A stretch of 39,830 bases of DNA from NCBI RefSeq assembly GCF_018860345.1, contig NZ_JAHKPJ010000023.1, positions 1 through 39,830 of the forward strand. The letters run 5' to 3'. Within the stretch, counting starts at the first letter, position 1. Each line of letters begins with the position of its first letter. Made by a program: the position numbers and the translations under genes. Positions 94 to 5,564 of this stretch are shown here, piece by piece. Source of the stretch: Psychrosphaera sp. F3M07 (GTDB taxonomy: Bacteria; Pseudomonadota; Gammaproteobacteria; Enterobacterales; Alteromonadaceae). The notes beneath the pieces are model-generated. The model saw only the letters and a list, made by a program, of their open reading frames with translations, did no database searches and had not been told where the DNA came from.

Positions 94-666
94 TTAATTG
101 GCTTGTGGTTTTTTTGCTAACTTACGTTGAAGTGTTCGGCGGTGCATTCCAAGCTGTCTGGCCGTTTCAGATATATTGCCTTGGTTCACTTTTAACACTT
201 GTTGAATATGCTCCCACTCCATACGGGCTGGTGACATACTAGGTTCAATATTGTGTTTGCCCTTACTTGCTCCTTGGTCAGCGGTTTTTACTCCACCTTG
301 TAAGGTAGCCAGTAAACTTGCACCATCAATTGGTTTAGATAAATAGTCATCCGCGCCAGATTTAATGGACTCAACCGCCGTAGCAATGCTGGCATAACCC
401 GTCAATAAAATAATGCGGCTATTGGGTAATAACTGTCTTAATTGGGGCAAGATATGAATGCCATTGTCATCACCCACTTTCATATCTAATAATACATATT
501 CAGGGCTTATTTTTTCAGCTAACTCAAGACCGGACTGCGTAGTGTGGGTAATATCAACTTGATAATCATGCCGTTCTAATCTGCGCGCTAGCACAGCCGC
601 GAAGCTCTCGTCATCTTCTATGATCAACAATTTTTTATTAATAGGCTCCGCTATCAAATCAGACAT
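94..666 (-). CDS. regA: RegA/ActR/PrrA-family redox response regulator
   Basis: A 190-residue response regulator, the usual RegA size. The receiver domain (about 12-125) has the acidic pocket E17-D18-D19, phospho-acceptor D61, T89 and K111. The C-terminus is a Fis-type helix-turn-helix (about 150-186) containing SETARQLGMHRRTLQRKLAK, which closely matches the highly conserved DNA-binding helix of RegA/PrrA. ATG at 666 overlaps the kinase stop by 8 bases, so the pair is translationally coupled. By family, RegA controls respiration and redox genes. Here it is the last gene of a run containing an MbnP/MbnH-like pair, whose promoter carries a GCGAC/GTCGC palindrome fitting this regulator type. 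Autoregulation is an inference. Confidence 0.93.
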   Translation of the reverse strand: MSDLIAEPINKKLLIIEDDESFAAVLARRLERHDYQVDITHTTQSGLELAEKISPEYVLLDMKVGDDNGIHILPQLRQLLPNSRIILLTGYASIATAVESIKSGADDYLSKPIDGASLLATLQGGVKTADQGASKGKHNIEPSMSPARMEWEHIQQVLKVNQGNISETARQLGMHRRTLQRKLAKKPQAN

Positions 667-1927
667 TATCCAACTCCGGCTGTGCAGCTAATAGAGGTAA
701 TGTGACTTCAGCAACAGCCCCGCCTTGTTGATGATTATATAGTTTTAACTGACCACCTAACTTATCTAAAGTGACATGTGATAAAAATACCCCCATACCT
801 AAACCATGTTTGCTGTCCACCAACTCACTGCCCAACTGTAATAATGTGTCGTTTGCAAAGCCAACTCCGTGATCTCGGATACTGATCACAATCGTGTTAT
901 TAGCTATGTGTGGAGCAACGGTTATTTCAATATGGGAATCATTCGGGTTGTCAGTTTTACTCGCCAGTACTGCATTTTGGATCAGATTTAACAAAGCGGG
1001 CATTAAAATGGGAGCCACCATTAACGACAAATTAGCCAGCTCGCCAACCTGCCAAATCACCTTAGTGCTGGGAAAGCTCAATTGAACTTCTTGGCGTAAA
1101 TCATTAATAAATTGTTGTGAGCCTAAACACTGTTTTGCGTTGTTTTTCACTTGTTCTGCCATGGCCCTAAAGTCATCTAAATGGCGTCTACATACATTTA
1201 GCTCTTGGTCTAACTGATTAAACAAAGATTCATCATAGGTTTGAATATCTTGTAATTCTTCCGAGATTAAATGCACGGTACCTAATGGCGTGGCTAATCG
1301 GTGGGCAAATTGTGCGGCGGCGGCCCCTAAAGATAACAACTGCTCTTGGCGTAATTGATCTTCACGTTGTTTACTCACCAATTTTTCTTGTTTGTTCACG
1401 GCCTTGATCAATGAGGCTACAACTAACACCACCACAAAGGCAGACAATAAAAAATTAAGCCACATGCCAAATAAGTGCTGTTCCATATTCATGTGGTGTA
1501 AATCATGAGGACTTAAGGTTAACAATAAACCTGAATAAGCGCTCATCGCCAACAATGTCACCACCAATAACAGGTGTTTAGGTAAAGTGACGGAAGCTAT
1601 TGCTATGGGCAATAACAGCAGTGATACAAACGGATTAGATGCGCCACCACTAAAATACAACAAAGCCGTTAAAAACAAGATGTCCATCACAACTTGAATA
1701 AAGTAGGCATTGATACTGACATTTCGATTGGTGCGGTACAGGTAAACAAACATTACATTTAATGCTGTTTCTATTGCCACAATGGCGTATAAAGTTAAAA
1801 AAGGTAATTCAGATTGGATCCAAAATTGGGATAATAAAATAGCAATCAGCTGCAAAACGATGAATGAAAATCTCGCTTTTACTATTGGCCTAATCTGCTG
1901 ACTGCTTTTTATGGTTTTGCTCTGCAT
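659..1927 (-). CDS. regB: RegB/PrrB-family redox sensor histidine kinase
   Basis: Membrane histidine kinase of 422-424 residues with about six hydrophobic segments in the first 175. Numbering is from the GTG at 1933; the ATG two codons in (1927) is taken as start, as neither has a clear ribosome site. The loop motif GGASNPF (96-102) matches the GGxxNPF quinone-binding motif of RegB. The phospho-acceptor is H211 in AHRLATPLGTV, typical of RegB. C248 in NVCRRHLDDF lies where RegB kinases carry their redox-active cysteine. The ATP-binding part shows NLIQNA (316-321), DHGVGF (354-359) and GLGMGVFL (377-384). It probably reads quinone pool or redox state and phosphorylates the overlapping RegA-like protein. 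Confidence 0.92.
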   Translation of the reverse strand: MQSKTIKSSQQIRPIVKARFSFIVLQLIAILLSQFWIQSELPFLTLYAIVAIETALNVMFVYLYRTNRNVSINAYFIQVVMDILFLTALLYFSGGASNPFVSLLLLPIAIASVTLPKHLLLVVTLLAMSAYSGLLLTLSPHDLHHMNMEQHLFGMWLNFLLSAFVVVLVVASLIKAVNKQEKLVSKQREDQLRQEQLLSLGAAAAQFAHRLATPLGTVHLISEELQDIQTYDESLFNQLDQELNVCRRHLDDFRAMAEQVKNNAKQCLGSQQFINDLRQEVQLSFPSTKVIWQVGELANLSLMVAPILMPALLNLIQNAVLASKTDNPNDSHIEITVAPHIANNTIVISIRDHGVGFANDTLLQLGSELVDSKHGLGMGVFLSHVTLDKLGGQLKLYNHQQGGAVAEVTLPLLAAQPELDNV

Positions 1928-1959
1928 CGACACTGCGCTTTTGTATTGAGTTAGCGGAT

Positions 1960-3165
1960 TTATAACAGTTTATGTTGCCAAATCAAACCTAAAGACCAGT
2001 ATTGTTGCGTTTTGTCTAATCCATCTTGGTATGACTGAGTTTTGTCGCTGACCGATTCAATGCGTAAAGTGAAATCAGCATTCCACTGCCAATGGTACCC
2101 AAACATTAACCTTTGTGGTTCAAAGCCTTGGTTGTATAAACCTTGTTGTTCGATTAACGAGGTACTGGCATCAGTAAACTTATTGTTGATAGCCAAATAT
2201 TCTTGCTGGACAAAAAACTTATGGGTTTGGTAGTTGACCCCTAACATGAAGCGATACCCATCTAAAGTTTGATCTATACCTGCACTTTGTGTTGTGTCTT
2301 CTATTTTTCCATCTTGCTCACTGTGCATCCATTCCCATTGAGCTAACCATAAAAAGTCGTCATTTACTTGCTGAGATAACAATACATAACTGCCCGCCAT
2401 GGCCACATCGCCGGTGAAGCGGACATCAGGCGCCGTGATTGTAGTCGCAGAATGACTATGGCCGCTGTCGTAACGACTGTCTATTCGTTGTTCCGCTTTG
2501 CCTGCAGAGTACCAACTCGCCACATCGGTTTTAACGCCGTAAATAAAACCATGATAACGAACAAAACCTGCAACGTTGCCTTTGCTTGAGCTGGTTGGCC
2601 AACTATCGCCATTCCATGCTTCTAATCCCACTTCAAGTTCGTGCCAATACCAGTTTGCTTTTACGCCGGTATCTTTATGATGACCACCAAAAAATGCTTC
2701 AGCTAATAGAGGTTTAGTATTAAATTCATCTTGTGAGGAGTGGTAATTAGCTGTGGGTGTTACATCTGTCGCCGTCTTGCCCACATCAATTTTTAAAATG
2801 CTGTTTTCAAATTTAAAGTATTTACCAAACCAATAGTTTTCCAGCTCTAACTCACCTTCTCCTTGATGTTGATGAAAACCAATTTTGCTGCCTAAGTAAT
2901 AATCACCTTCTAGGTTAAGGCGGCCAAATAATTGTAAATCATTAATGGCTGTCCCAGAAGATTGGGGGGTGGACTCACCTCCTAACATAACTCCAGGAAT
3001 TAACCATGCTTGATCATTTGCCACTATCGATGTGTTTTGCACACCCATTGCGCTTTTTAACAATAATTGTGATGGCATATCAATAAAGCTTGGCTCATGT
3101 GCCATGACAGTCGAAACCGACAGCAAACTTGTAGCTAATAATATATAGGGGGTAATTTTTCGCAT
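1960..3165 (-). CDS. Outer-membrane beta-barrel protein in the MbnP/MbnH operon
   Basis: About 401 residues. An in-frame start exists at 3219, but ATG 3165 is preferred: it gives a clean signal peptide (MRKITPYILLATSLLSVSTVMA, then HEPSF) and begins 4 bases after the upstream stop. The rest is rich in alternating aromatic/polar beta-strand sequence (for example HWQWNADFTLRIESVSD) and ends in YWSLGLIWQHKLL, consistent with a porin-like barrel. I cannot name the family. Its place behind the metal-handling pair suggests passage or sensing of the same ligand at the outer membrane, which is inference only. Confidence 0.75.
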   Translation of the reverse strand: MRKITPYILLATSLLSVSTVMAHEPSFIDMPSQLLLKSAMGVQNTSIVANDQAWLIPGVMLGGESTPQSSGTAINDLQLFGRLNLEGDYYLGSKIGFHQHQGEGELELENYWFGKYFKFENSILKIDVGKTATDVTPTANYHSSQDEFNTKPLLAEAFFGGHHKDTGVKANWYWHELEVGLEAWNGDSWPTSSSKGNVAGFVRYHGFIYGVKTDVASWYSAGKAEQRIDSRYDSGHSHSATTITAPDVRFTGDVAMAGSYVLLSQQVNDDFLWLAQWEWMHSEQDGKIEDTTQSAGIDQTLDGYRFMLGVNYQTHKFFVQQEYLAINNKFTDASTSLIEQQGLYNQGFEPQRLMFGYHWQWNADFTLRIESVSDKTQSYQDGLDKTQQYWSLGLIWQHKLL

Positions 3166-3169
3166 GGGA

Positions 3170-4372
3170 TCATTCTTCAAAAGGGTTGGAAAACTTGGGT
3201 GACGTAATAAACTCTTCATCGGTAAGAGACTCTAAAAATGCGATAACCGCATCAATTTCTTCATCGGTCGCGTCGAACCCCTGAATTAAACCTGACTTAA
3301 GTGGACTTAAACGTCCGTCTCCCGCATTAATACCGGACTCAGTTAAACTGCCACCTCTCGCATAATGCTCTATGACTTCCCGTAACGTTGCGATACTGCC
3401 ATCGTGCATATAAGGCGCGGTTAACTCGATATTCCTTAAGCTCTGCGGCCTAAAAAAGCCTTTATCTGCAGGATTAAGTGATAAATCATACAAACCTTGA
3501 TCATCACTTGGGTAACTGCCATCTCCGCCTACATTATATAAACCATTATTAAAAAATGGGAACTGGATGGCATCACTGGCGGTATTGGCGTCTCGGTAAG
3601 AAGATGAAAAATTAATGCCTGAATGACAATGAAAACACTCAAACTTTTCACCATTAAATAACTGAAAACCCTTGATCTGTTGCTGAGTTAACGCTGACTT
3701 ATCACCCGCTAAATATTGATCGTATGGGCTGGATGCACTGATCATCGTTCTGACAAAACTTGCCAGTGAAAAGATGATCTTATTCATTGTGATATTTGAA
3801 TCACTGTCTGGAAACGCCATAGCAAACATTTCTACATATTGAGGGTCTTGTTCAAAGCGCAATAAAACTTCATCGAGCTTTGCATCTGTGACCCCTAGCT
3901 CTATTGGGTTATCAGCTCGAATTGGTACATTTAACTGATCTTCAAGTTCTAAAAAGCCATCATTACTCCAGGTTAAGGTGGAGTGATAAATAACATTGGC
4001 TAAGCCTTGGCTGTTTCTGACCAACTGATGACCGGTTGAACCTAACGGTTGTGCAATACCGTCGGCAAACGCTAATGATTGGTTATGACATGACGCACAA
4101 GATTGTGCTTGGTTGGCAGAGAGCCTTGGGTCGTAAAATAAAAAACGTCCCAGTTGGATTTTGGCATTAGTTAACGGGTTAAAATCTGGAATCGCTGGTG
4201 TGGGCATATGATCAGGAAGATCTAATATCTCTCTGACTGAGCGATTGTCACTACTGGTTTCAATGATGGTACTAGAATCTTGTTCGCACCCAGTTACACA
4301 AAACAATGCAGCACTCAAAGACACAATACGTATTAACAAACCGATTTTTAAAGTTCTCAAGATAGTTCTCAA
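3170..4372 (-). CDS. MbnH-like di-heme cytochrome c peroxidase/MauG-family lipoprotein
   Basis: A 400-residue periplasmic di-heme protein. A lipobox VTGC puts the lipidated cysteine at 29. Two heme c sites are visible: CASCH at 92-96 and CFHCH at 246-250, with a downstream APYMHDGS motif (329-336) typical of the second-heme environment. Length and motifs fit the TIGR04039 'metallo-mystery pair' di-heme enzyme, whose studied member MbnH oxidises a tryptophan of its partner MbnP. The partner lies immediately upstream (4429-5421). No ATG is available near the N-terminus: TTG at 4372 opens the frame, and a second TTG at 4360 has GAGAA upstream and is equally plausible. Confidence 0.88.
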   Translation of the reverse strand: MRTILRTLKIGLLIRIVSLSAALFCVTGCEQDSSTIIETSSDNRSVREILDLPDHMPTPAIPDFNPLTNAKIQLGRFLFYDPRLSANQAQSCASCHNQSLAFADGIAQPLGSTGHQLVRNSQGLANVIYHSTLTWSNDGFLELEDQLNVPIRADNPIELGVTDAKLDEVLLRFEQDPQYVEMFAMAFPDSDSNITMNKIIFSLASFVRTMISASSPYDQYLAGDKSALTQQQIKGFQLFNGEKFECFHCHSGINFSSSYRDANTASDAIQFPFFNNGLYNVGGDGSYPSDDQGLYDLSLNPADKGFFRPQSLRNIELTAPYMHDGSIATLREVIEHYARGGSLTESGINAGDGRLSPLKSGLIQGFDATDEEIDAVIAFLESLTDEEFITSPKFSNPFEE

Positions 4373-4389
4373 GTTAGTGATTATTGTTA

Positions 4390-4418
4390 ATTAAAATAAA
4401 AAAGGGGCCTGAGCCCCA
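4390..4418 (-). terminator. Intrinsic terminator between the MbnP-like and MbnH-like genes
   Basis: Read on the minus strand: GGGGC, loop TCAG, GCCCC, then TTTTTTATTTT. A GC-pure 5-bp stem with a uridine tract is a standard Rho-independent terminator. It follows the MbnP-like stop by 11 bases but sits inside a run of co-directional genes, so it probably attenuates rather than ends transcription. Confidence 0.8.
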
Positions 4419-4428
4419 ATAGGAAGGC

Positions 4429-5421
4429 TTATTTAAGCGTAACAACCTTGTTGCCACTTACCGTAGCGCTGCCATCTTCTGTGGCTAAACCAAGGTTATT
4501 GAATATTGGGCCGCAGTCTGCCTGCATATCTGGACTTGTTGAGTGACATGTCACAGATGGTGCGTCCATGGTCATTTCATCGTCATTTTCTGCCGTCGCA
4601 CTGTGACTTCCATGCCCACTCATTGACGCTGAAAACGCTAAGTCAGCAAGTAAGTTGTCAATGTCGATGACAACTTGATTGATATTAGGATCAAAATTAT
4701 TGAGTTCTACTTTGGCGGTATTAACAAAATCACAACGTTCTTTGTTTTCTAACGCTAATAAACCACCATCATCACCACAACCTCGGCTCCCAATATGTAA
4801 ATATCCTTCACCTTTCGAGCCCATCATACTCTCAATGGCAAAATTCATTACAAAATGACGATATCCTGAAGCCCAAGACCAATACATTTCATTTAATGGC
4901 GATGGCGCATCTTCAGCACTTTGAGTCGTGATAACCTCTTTCATAACTGCTTGAGGGACACCTAAGTCAAATGTCACTTTGTTAACACCTATGTCTAACA
5001 TCTTGCCGGTTATCATGTTATTCGTTCTAGCGGTACCTTCACCATTAGCGATAGCATCCGAGGCACAACTGCCCGTGCTGTTGCTGGTTAAATCGATTAG
5101 ACCGACAAAACCTTTATCATGATTTAACTGAAAGTCATTGTCGTTAAATGTTATTTCAATTTGAGCCCCATACTGATCATAAAATGCCAAATTACTAACG
5201 TAAAAACGTAAATCACTCACACCAATAGAATAATGCCCTTCCGTTCCAAACCCAGACAATACAGTGTCACAACTTACTTCTTCTGACCCACTCATGGCCG
5301 TGAAATTTAACGAAAACTCCGTCATCGAGGTTTCATTTTCCATGTCACTACTGCATGCGTTTAACATAAAAACAGTCGCTAATGACAATACACTCACTTT
5401 GGTTTTAGAACTCAATTTCAT
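4429..5421 (-). CDS. MbnP-like (TIGR04052 four-Cys) metal-binding lipoprotein
   Basis: A 330-residue lipoprotein with lipobox LNAC (C23). Features match the 'metallo-mystery pair' four-Cys family: C51, C119, C215 and C230 in the body, and a conserved aromatic block MYWSWASGYRHF (179-190) with W181 and W183, candidates for the tryptophan oxidised by the partner enzyme. A C-terminal CHSTSPDMQADCGPIF block holds C292 and C303. A Met/His-rich stretch (267-286, with GHGSHS) could bind copper. It is first in the operon, with AGAGAA before ATG 5421. By family it binds a metal, copper in characterised MbnP, in the periplasm after kynurenine formation. Whether this protein is so modified is unknown. 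Confidence 0.88.
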   Translation of the reverse strand: MKLSSKTKVSVLSLATVFMLNACSSDMENETSMTEFSLNFTAMSGSEEVSCDTVLSGFGTEGHYSIGVSDLRFYVSNLAFYDQYGAQIEITFNDNDFQLNHDKGFVGLIDLTSNSTGSCASDAIANGEGTARTNNMITGKMLDIGVNKVTFDLGVPQAVMKEVITTQSAEDAPSPLNEMYWSWASGYRHFVMNFAIESMMGSKGEGYLHIGSRGCGDDGGLLALENKERCDFVNTAKVELNNFDPNINQVVIDIDNLLADLAFSASMSGHGSHSATAENDDEMTMDAPSVTCHSTSPDMQADCGPIFNNLGLATEDGSATVSGNKVVTLK

Positions 5422-5518
5422 AATATTCTCTGGTATTTGTTTAATATAAAATAAACATAGTTGCGGACTAACAACTCGTAATTTGGTTACTTGGCAATTA
5501 GTCCAACTTGATGATCGT

Positions 5519-5547
5519 ATTATGATTTTTATCTAACGAGGACTCAA
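5519..5547 (-). promoter_or_regulatory. Sigma70-type promoter of the MbnP-MbnH-barrel-RegBA operon
   Basis: On the minus strand, -35 TTGAGT (5547-5542), a 17-base spacer and -10 CATAAT (5524-5519) form a good vegetative promoter about 100 bases before ATG 5421. The palindrome at 5548-5564 directly abuts the -35 box. Confidence 0.65.
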
Positions 5548-5564
5548 TGCGACAAATTGTCGCA
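5548..5564. promoter_or_regulatory. Perfect palindrome of RegA-box type
   Basis: TGCGACAA, a central A, then TTGTCGCA: a perfect 8+1+8 inverted repeat. The GCGAC/GTCGC half-sites agree with the GCGNC/GNCGC half-sites reported for RegA/PrrA/RegR. It abuts the -35 box of the promoter for the operon that encodes a RegA-like protein. Confidence 0.7.

Follow-up and report, generated by a model that had tools for sequence, protein, structure and literature searches.

The described systems closest to the putative operon reported here include the MbnP/MbnH protein pair and the RegB/RegA two-component switch. To our knowledge, the sensing of copper starvation in Gram-negative bacteria is poorly understood. 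The operon lies in Psychrosphaera sp. F3M07, in a stretch of 39,830 nucleotides (hereafter the window) at the start of contig NZ_JAHKPJ010000023.1, which is 50,712 bases long, and consists of mbnP, mbnH, a gene for a predicted outer membrane barrel, regB and regA. MbnP and MbnH have been termed 'mysterious partners', spread far beyond the producers of methanobactin, and the passages cited describe MbnP as not markedly similar to CorA or MopE (PMC3621798). The known RegB/RegA systems (PrrB/PrrA, ActS/ActR and RoxSR of Pseudomonas) share with the window a membrane kinase with an NPF quinone motif and a conserved cysteine, a Fis-type regulator and a GCG inverted-repeat site. RegB is described as inhibited by oxidised ubiquinone only (PMC5359404) and PrrB by electron flow through the cbb3 oxidase (PMC8399564), while RoxSR is active in a strain without four terminal oxidases and activates non-copper oxidase genes (PMC5436846). 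Group-1 regBA genes share a transcript with senC, which encodes a copper protein, and copper is also bound by RegA (PMC9147068).

We consider it probable that the window carries a self-regulated metal-acquisition operon under RegA, most likely for copper, in which RegB would read shortage through the state of the oxidases or the quinone pool. The genes lie on the minus strand and run from mbnP (4429..5421) through mbnH (3170..4372), the barrel gene (1960..3165) and regB (659..1933) to regA (94..666). The original prediction, made from the sequence of this stretch, had described five co-directional genes, the first four separated by 55, 4 and 26 bases and the last two overlapping by 8; the five genes are confirmed as real and co-directional with these distances, except that mbnP and mbnH are separated by 56 bases rather than 55. 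The barrel start was placed at the second in-frame ATG (3165), the longest frame beginning at 3219. The contig ends 93 bases past regA, which bounds the neighbourhood covered on that side.

Both members of the mbn pair pass their family cut-offs, MbnP with 210.5 bits to TIGR04052 (curated cut-off 140; it also matches PF20243) and MbnH, a MbnH/MauG-type di-heme protein, with 483 bits to TIGR04039 (cut-off 363); the nearest named relatives of MbnH are from Psychrosphaera, at up to 84%. That the two are lipoproteins, the second with two CXXCH motifs, was borne out by alignments in which the lipobox cysteine of each is invariant (8/8 in both cases) and by the heme motifs CASCH and CFHCH of MbnH. 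The WxW motif of MbnP was found at W181/W183, as predicted, and is invariant in 8/8 aligned MbnPs. Sequence comparison with the PDB matched MbnP to 7l6g (E 1.3e-10), in an alignment that takes in the WxW region, and MbnH to 6e1c (E 8e-99); we take these entries to be the methanotroph proteins. Later biochemical work reportedly found tryptophan converted to kynurenine in a methanotroph MbnP, with copper binding, and by analogy the window MbnP may form kynurenine and bind copper likewise. The window differs from the methanotroph-type pair in having a dedicated porin-like barrel and regBA as partners and a RegA-type box at its head.

The nearest families of the two regulators are RegB and RegA, as predicted, and the GGxxNPF motif of the kinase is present as GGASNPF; both proteins nevertheless miss the curated cut-offs of the ActS/PrrB and ActR/PrrA models (NF033792 and NF033791), and we therefore call them RegB-like and RegA-like. 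NPF is invariant in 11/11 aligned RegBs and GG is kept in fewer. A cysteine after the H-box (Cys248), putatively redox-active, aligns in 9 of the 11 (L138 and L137, in our locus numbering, are without it), and RegBs from other classes that pass the NF033792 cut-off have a cysteine in the same stretch. Carried over from its relatives, quinone sensing would be expected of the window RegB. RegA combines a receiver (PF00072) with a Fis-type helix-turn-helix (PF02954; HRRTLQRKL), and the recognition helix HRR-LQRKL, whose residues we assume to be the defining trait of the RegA/ActR/PrrA family, is invariant in 12/12 aligned proteins. The window RegA has no cysteine at all, and hence no equivalent of Cys156; this rules out here the copper- and oxygen-dependent dimer formed through that residue in Rhodobacter RegA (PMC9147068). 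The pair differs from the known systems further in its linkage to mbnP, mbnH and the barrel gene instead of senC. As in the group-1 systems, regBA is co-encoded with a (here putative) copper protein (PMC9147068), the cargo in the window being outer membrane capture rather than oxidase assembly.

The kinase might instead sense copper directly, a His/Met-rich loop between transmembrane segments 5 and 6 (TM5-TM6) binding periplasmic copper and gating kinase activity. H146, H153 and M157 of this loop are invariant in 11/11 linked RegBs, its periplasmic side is suggested by the six-segment topology of PrrB (PMC8399564), and the RegBs of other classes that pass the NF033792 cut-off are without the pattern in the rows shown. 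The loop (residues 143-157 of the window RegB, gene 1933-659) is, on the other hand, common to RegBs of the order: those unlinked to mbn genes carry similar loops, which marks it as a lineage trait and rules it out as an mbn-specific copper sensor. We regard direct copper sensing as unlikely.

Upstream of mbnP lies a 17-bp palindrome (5548..5564, minus strand) that forms a candidate RegA operator. Its core, GCGNC-N5-GNCGC (5549-5563), occurs once in the window, with 0.09 matches expected; position 5564, where the region of the original prediction ended, is the edge of this palindrome, which that prediction did not mention. The box resembles Rhodobacter RegA sites from chromatin immunoprecipitation at ccoN (GCGACCGTTCGTCGC) and cydA (GTGACAATTTGTCCC) (PMC5359404), and PrrA sites are described in the passages cited as a 'degenerate GCG inverted repeat' with no strong consensus (PMC4263372). 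The palindrome abuts the -35 element of a promoter-like TTGAGT-17-CATAAT (5519..5547, minus strand), and its centre at about -44 would, as we read it, correspond to a class II activator position. The promoter-like call is made on position, because a consensus scan of the region gave 16 such sites against 20.8 in shuffles. In the whole genome the loose pattern GCGNC-N5-GNCGC matched 18 sites and its reversed form 11, so that it is too degenerate for calling a regulon. At up to two mismatches to the 17-mer the mbn site is the only one in this genome, a further difference from the known RegB/RegA systems; at up to three, 2 forward and 2 reverse matches stood against 4 and 5 control matches, which is not above control, and therefore only the mbn site is credible here.

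Conservation was assessed in 44 MbnP loci from 394 genomes of the order and 80 MbnH loci, the latter being those closest to the window clade in the named genome collection (the best 80 of 131 confirmed). Three of these 124 loci were duplicates (L091, L107 and L152), leaving 121 distinct loci; with ten more lacking a usable mbnH or upstream stretch, 13 were dropped and 111 could be tested for the box. The original prediction had staked its reading on a conserved five-gene order. This order, mbnP-mbnH-barrel-regB-regA, recurs in 11 of the 121 distinct loci across several families (the window, L034 of genome G348, L083, L084, L085, L086, L087, L099, L108, L142 and L138), including Psychrosphaera, Aliiglaciecola, Paraglaciecola and metagenome-assembled genomes of Hahella and Oceanobacter, and all 11 keep WxW in MbnP and two CXXCH in MbnH. 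Reading the five genes as a unit is thus supported. The mbnP-mbnH-barrel trio without a linked regB was found in 29 of the 111 testable loci, including some from Colwellia, Vibrio, Moritella and Teredinibacter, and regB adjoins mbn genes also in L157 (divergently), L137 and L110. In the RegB tree, ten of the 11 five-gene RegBs form one clade (100/100). Because those of L138, L157, L137 and L110 fall elsewhere, the linkage of regB to mbn genes seems to have arisen more than once, with the caution that their branches are long.

The box was sought in the 1.1-kb stretch upstream of mbnH, counting sites with at least 15 of 17 matches. It was found in 29 of the 111 testable loci, against 0.25 in shuffles and 0/104 in downstream control windows; the pattern was derived from some of these loci, so that for them the enrichment is descriptive, whereas the genome-wide test below does not depend on the choice of genes. 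All 11 five-gene loci and L157 have the box. In L142 both half-sites are altered symmetrically, and in L086, L087 and L099 the box precedes PCuAC as the first gene of the operon. The -10 hexamer fits best at 23 nt after the box when all 29 loci are considered, with a mean of 2.93/6 matches. It could be argued that regBA is a mere neighbour of the mbn genes, given that the order occurs in only 11 of 121 loci and that ten of the RegBs concerned belong to one clade. A box at the operon head in 11/11 cases, together with the further linkages in L138 and L157, with their off-clade RegBs on long branches, and in two loci from a class-wide sample (L363 and L364), makes this very improbable.

The occurrence of the box also followed that of RegB across the 394 genomes of the order. 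A genome was counted RegB-positive if it encoded a RegB scoring 140 bits or more whose membrane part was wholly or largely present; 102 genomes qualified, 17 with kinase-domain matches only were counted negative, and, with four kinase candidates scored per genome, some RegBs may have been missed. Boxes with at most one mismatch were present in 86 of 394 genomes, against 15 of 394 for the reversed pattern. They occurred in 68 of the 102 RegB-positive genomes and in 18 of the 292 others (Fisher p 1e-33, uncorrected for phylogeny), the latter being near the reversed-pattern background. Within genus g25 the box was found in 11/11 RegB-positive genomes and 0/7 others, and within g3 in 3/3 and 0/3. 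In RegB-positive genomes 40 of 90 box sites are no more than 10 kb away from regB, and several stand immediately before this gene. A class-wide sample gave boxes in 40 of 274 genomes, against 11 for the reversed pattern; among 28 of these loci inspected, regB is the first gene beside the box in ten, in two of which (L363 and L364) mbnP lies on the other side, placing the box between regB and mbnP. We also compared 24 chosen loci without linked regBA, and 4 with it. Twelve of the unlinked loci have a box with at least 15/17 matches, and all 12 genomes encode, at another place, a RegB that includes the membrane part; among the remaining twelve, six have such a RegB (L114, L115, L120, L144, L149 and L161, with a 14/17 box in L149 and L161) and six do not (L095, L129, L153, L158, L159 and L162). 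The wiring of regBA to the mbn genes that the original prediction proposed is therefore supported: the operon is headed by a RegA-type box, and the occurrence of this box goes with that of RegB.

Targets of the box in the order were examined at 25 loci chosen by our search tool (L309-L333). The box stands before a protein matching the TonB-receptor profile in 12 of them, before regB in three (two of these among the 12) and before a barrel relative in one; four have unlabelled or overlapping TonB-like proteins (L310, L311, L331 and L332) and seven have no recognisable target. TIGR01778 (TonB-copper) was the best NCBIfam family, with matches below its cut-off, for 11 of 12 boxed receptors scanned, the twelfth (L355) being nearest to siderophore receptors. 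At a threshold of 1e-40, no TIGR01778 receptor was found in genomes G000, G348, G557, G194 and G357; G134 likewise gave no match genome-wide at 1e-40, yet hmmscan of its boxed receptor gave 3e-53, over two stretches. In L348, L350 and L352 the box, a TonB receptor gene and regB follow each other in the same direction with short gaps, which appears to be the design of the window with other cargo, in other genera. Further targets came from 18 genomes in which two-mismatch sites were near the control count: genes for DUF1775 proteins in G194 (E 2e-6) and G535 (E 7e-6), a PepSY protein whose match is below the Pfam cut-off, and coxB-coxA (cytochrome oxidase) in Teredinibacter. DUF1775 is presumably the YcnI domain. 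YcnI is discussed in the context of copper acquisition (PMC12154828). PCuAC also follows mbnP-mbnH-barrel in three loci without a box (L031, L032 and L153).

These targets bear on two other explanations. The switch may exert ordinary oxygen or redox control, RegBA placing MbnP/MbnH and the barrel among the genes of low-oxygen respiration, with copper as a cofactor need and not the signal. The family of the kinase and its quinone motif fit this, as do a box before a cytochrome oxidase operon in G534 and the respiratory character of the Rhodobacter RegA regulon, so far as the cited source describes it (PMC5359404). The commonest recognisable targets are, however, TonB receptors, nearly all of those scanned being nearest to a copper family, and in the window genome the mbn operon alone is boxed at up to two mismatches, so that we think this explanation doubtful. 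Alternatively, MbnP and the barrel could serve in copper detoxification or export, or could act on a different ligand, as the other partners of MbnP/MbnH in many loci might allow. That the boxed set also contains PCuAC, DUF1775 and TonB receptors points to acquisition, and copper lowers the expression of CorA/CorB, somewhat similar genes in a methanotroph (PMC3621798); a role in defence or with another metal seems to us slightly less likely still than direct copper sensing by RegB.

Several results weigh against RegA-controlled copper acquisition. The window RegB reaches 168 bits against the equivalog cut-off of 350, and RegA 170 against 250. The box is missing from 82 of the 111 testable loci, and therefore the MbnP/MbnH pair as such does not require RegBA; it is also missing from the regB-linked L110 and L137, from L114, L115, L120 and L144 despite their unlinked RegBs (best sites 13/17), and, at up to one mismatch, from 34 of the 102 RegB-positive genomes, and phylogeny was controlled in a few genera only. 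No TIGR01778 match reached the cut-off of 472 bits, so that the copper substrate of the receptors is putative. A paper of 2013 states, in the passages cited, that no data were found tying close MbnP homologues to copper (PMC3621798), and RoxSR represses coxB in Pseudomonas (PMC5436846), so that the sign of control at oxidase genes may differ. Finally, an intrinsic-terminator-like hairpin with a run of six T (4404..4417, minus strand) between mbnP and mbnH, a possible attenuator, qualifies the claim of a single transcript, which may involve read-through or attenuation. Such hairpins follow mbnP in 6 of the 11 five-gene loci (L074, L083, L085, L087, L099 and L108), which weakens the case for one simple transcript; none was found in L034, L084, L086, L138 and L142, L084 being an unfair test because its mbnP frame is short. 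In that locus (L084:6952-7605) the frame stops early in the open reading frame call, at 217 residues.

From the published results on RegB, PrrB, RoxSR and senC taken together, we propose how RegA-controlled copper capture would work. RegB, in the membrane, and RegA, in the cytoplasm, would be produced from the 3' end of the operon, and RegB need not see copper itself. Copper shortage would leave heme-copper oxidases under-metallated and failing, the quinone pool would become reduced, RegB would be released, and RegA-phosphate would bind the palindrome beside the -35 element, most likely activating the whole operon from there given the centre at about -44. The barrel would then serve as the outer membrane port, MbnH would oxidise the WxW tryptophan and the MbnP lipoprotein would hold the metal, while the hairpin suggests higher production of MbnP than of MbnH, the barrel and the regulators. 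In many related bacteria the same switch and operator are again found next to probable genes for copper uptake, which suggests that these cells may gauge their copper supply from the performance of respiration. More tentatively, and with somewhat less than even confidence, we suggest that RegBA in Gammaproteobacteria, and perhaps Myxococcota, is largely a regulator of copper economy that senses shortage as loss of heme-copper oxidase function and, through the 17-bp operator, turns on TonB receptors, MbnP/MbnH with a porin, PCuAC and DUF1775 proteins, the lineage of the window having made the switch part of the capture operon, in one self-contained module. If true, this would tie together the linkage of senC and regBA in Rhodobacter, the binding of copper by RegA and the so far unexplained pair of MbnP and MbnH. 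The parts belong to known families; what is new is the RegA-type operator wiring, the regulator inside the operon and the candidate regulon. As the original prediction had supposed, searches of openly licensed papers found no described system of this composition, and no description of such wiring. A conserved RegA-type operator before the mbn pair and before TonB receptors nearest to the copper family offers a concrete, testable regulator, signal and regulon, and RegBA, so far seen as a general redox switch, would then also be a guardian of the respiratory copper supply.

The barrel had been put forward as a possible outer membrane port, and here the predicted fold agreed. Neither NCBIfam nor Pfam gave a family match for the protein in the window; among 34 relatives, Pfam matched BBP2 in two and Porin_O_P in one. 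An AlphaFold2 model built with the 34 aligned relatives has 16 strands (pLDDT 90, pTM 0.86), and its best Foldseek matches are mostly general porins (OmpT of V. cholerae, chitoporin and PorB) at about 10% identity and TMq of about 0.5. Conservation is low over the barrel, save for a few residues that include histidines: H98 (34/34), H142 (32/34), H236 (34/34) and H238 (33/34), and in 28/34 relatives a histidine at the predicted mature N terminus, with the cleavage site as we read it. The strand order would place H98 at the end of a strand and H142, H236 and H238 in the long loops that presumably face the outside of the cell. Such a pattern is as expected of a metal port, the substrate being a prediction. 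The boxed barrel relative mentioned above (L325:40-1386) has 448 residues and scores 107 bits; regB is some 1 kb away, and the 3-kb stretch inspected contains no mbnP.

The operon also invites comparison with the CruR-bfrG operon of Bordetella, which is copper-repressed and includes an outer membrane receptor, and whose CruR acts after transcription initiation (PMC9426467). In seven barrel-type mbn loci without a box the first gene encodes a small membrane protein whose end reads ..PK(Q/H)SPP.., a Pro-Pro motif, and which is placed like the upstream open reading frame of CruR (L031:9301-9768, L032:6830-7327, L033:7154-7651, L153:6511-6966, L158:6685-6915, L159:6364-6828 and L162:6326-6781). 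They come from Vibrio and the Moritella genus, with L031 from another family, and none of the seven genomes has a RegB with a membrane part among the four kinase candidates scored in each. Identification of these small upstream proteins as CruR, of the DUF2946 family, was rejected, having no Pfam support in those scanned (best E 0.066, in L094), and the likeness is one of architecture.

Further observations concern boxes and mbn loci elsewhere. Five boxes with at most one mismatch lie within about 9 kb in genome G725 (contig 18, 21.2-30.3 kb), the first of them (L380) with no recognisable target among the genes around it. A second type of MbnP/MbnH locus, with no box where checked, has in place of the barrel a large, secreted-looking protein encoded divergently from mbnP, as in L048:8900-11647 and in the divergent genes of about 880-950 residues in many of L042-L066. 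An outer membrane-like protein of about 390-420 residues, with AYVGLCC(G/A)KCGGNMP near its N terminus, was also found behind a RegA-type box (L361:244-1413, L362:234-1508, L373:236-1420, L374:1574-2740 and L376:245-1429), in three cases divergent from regB; the one scanned gave a weak match to PF13557, and the protein is possibly a copper port.

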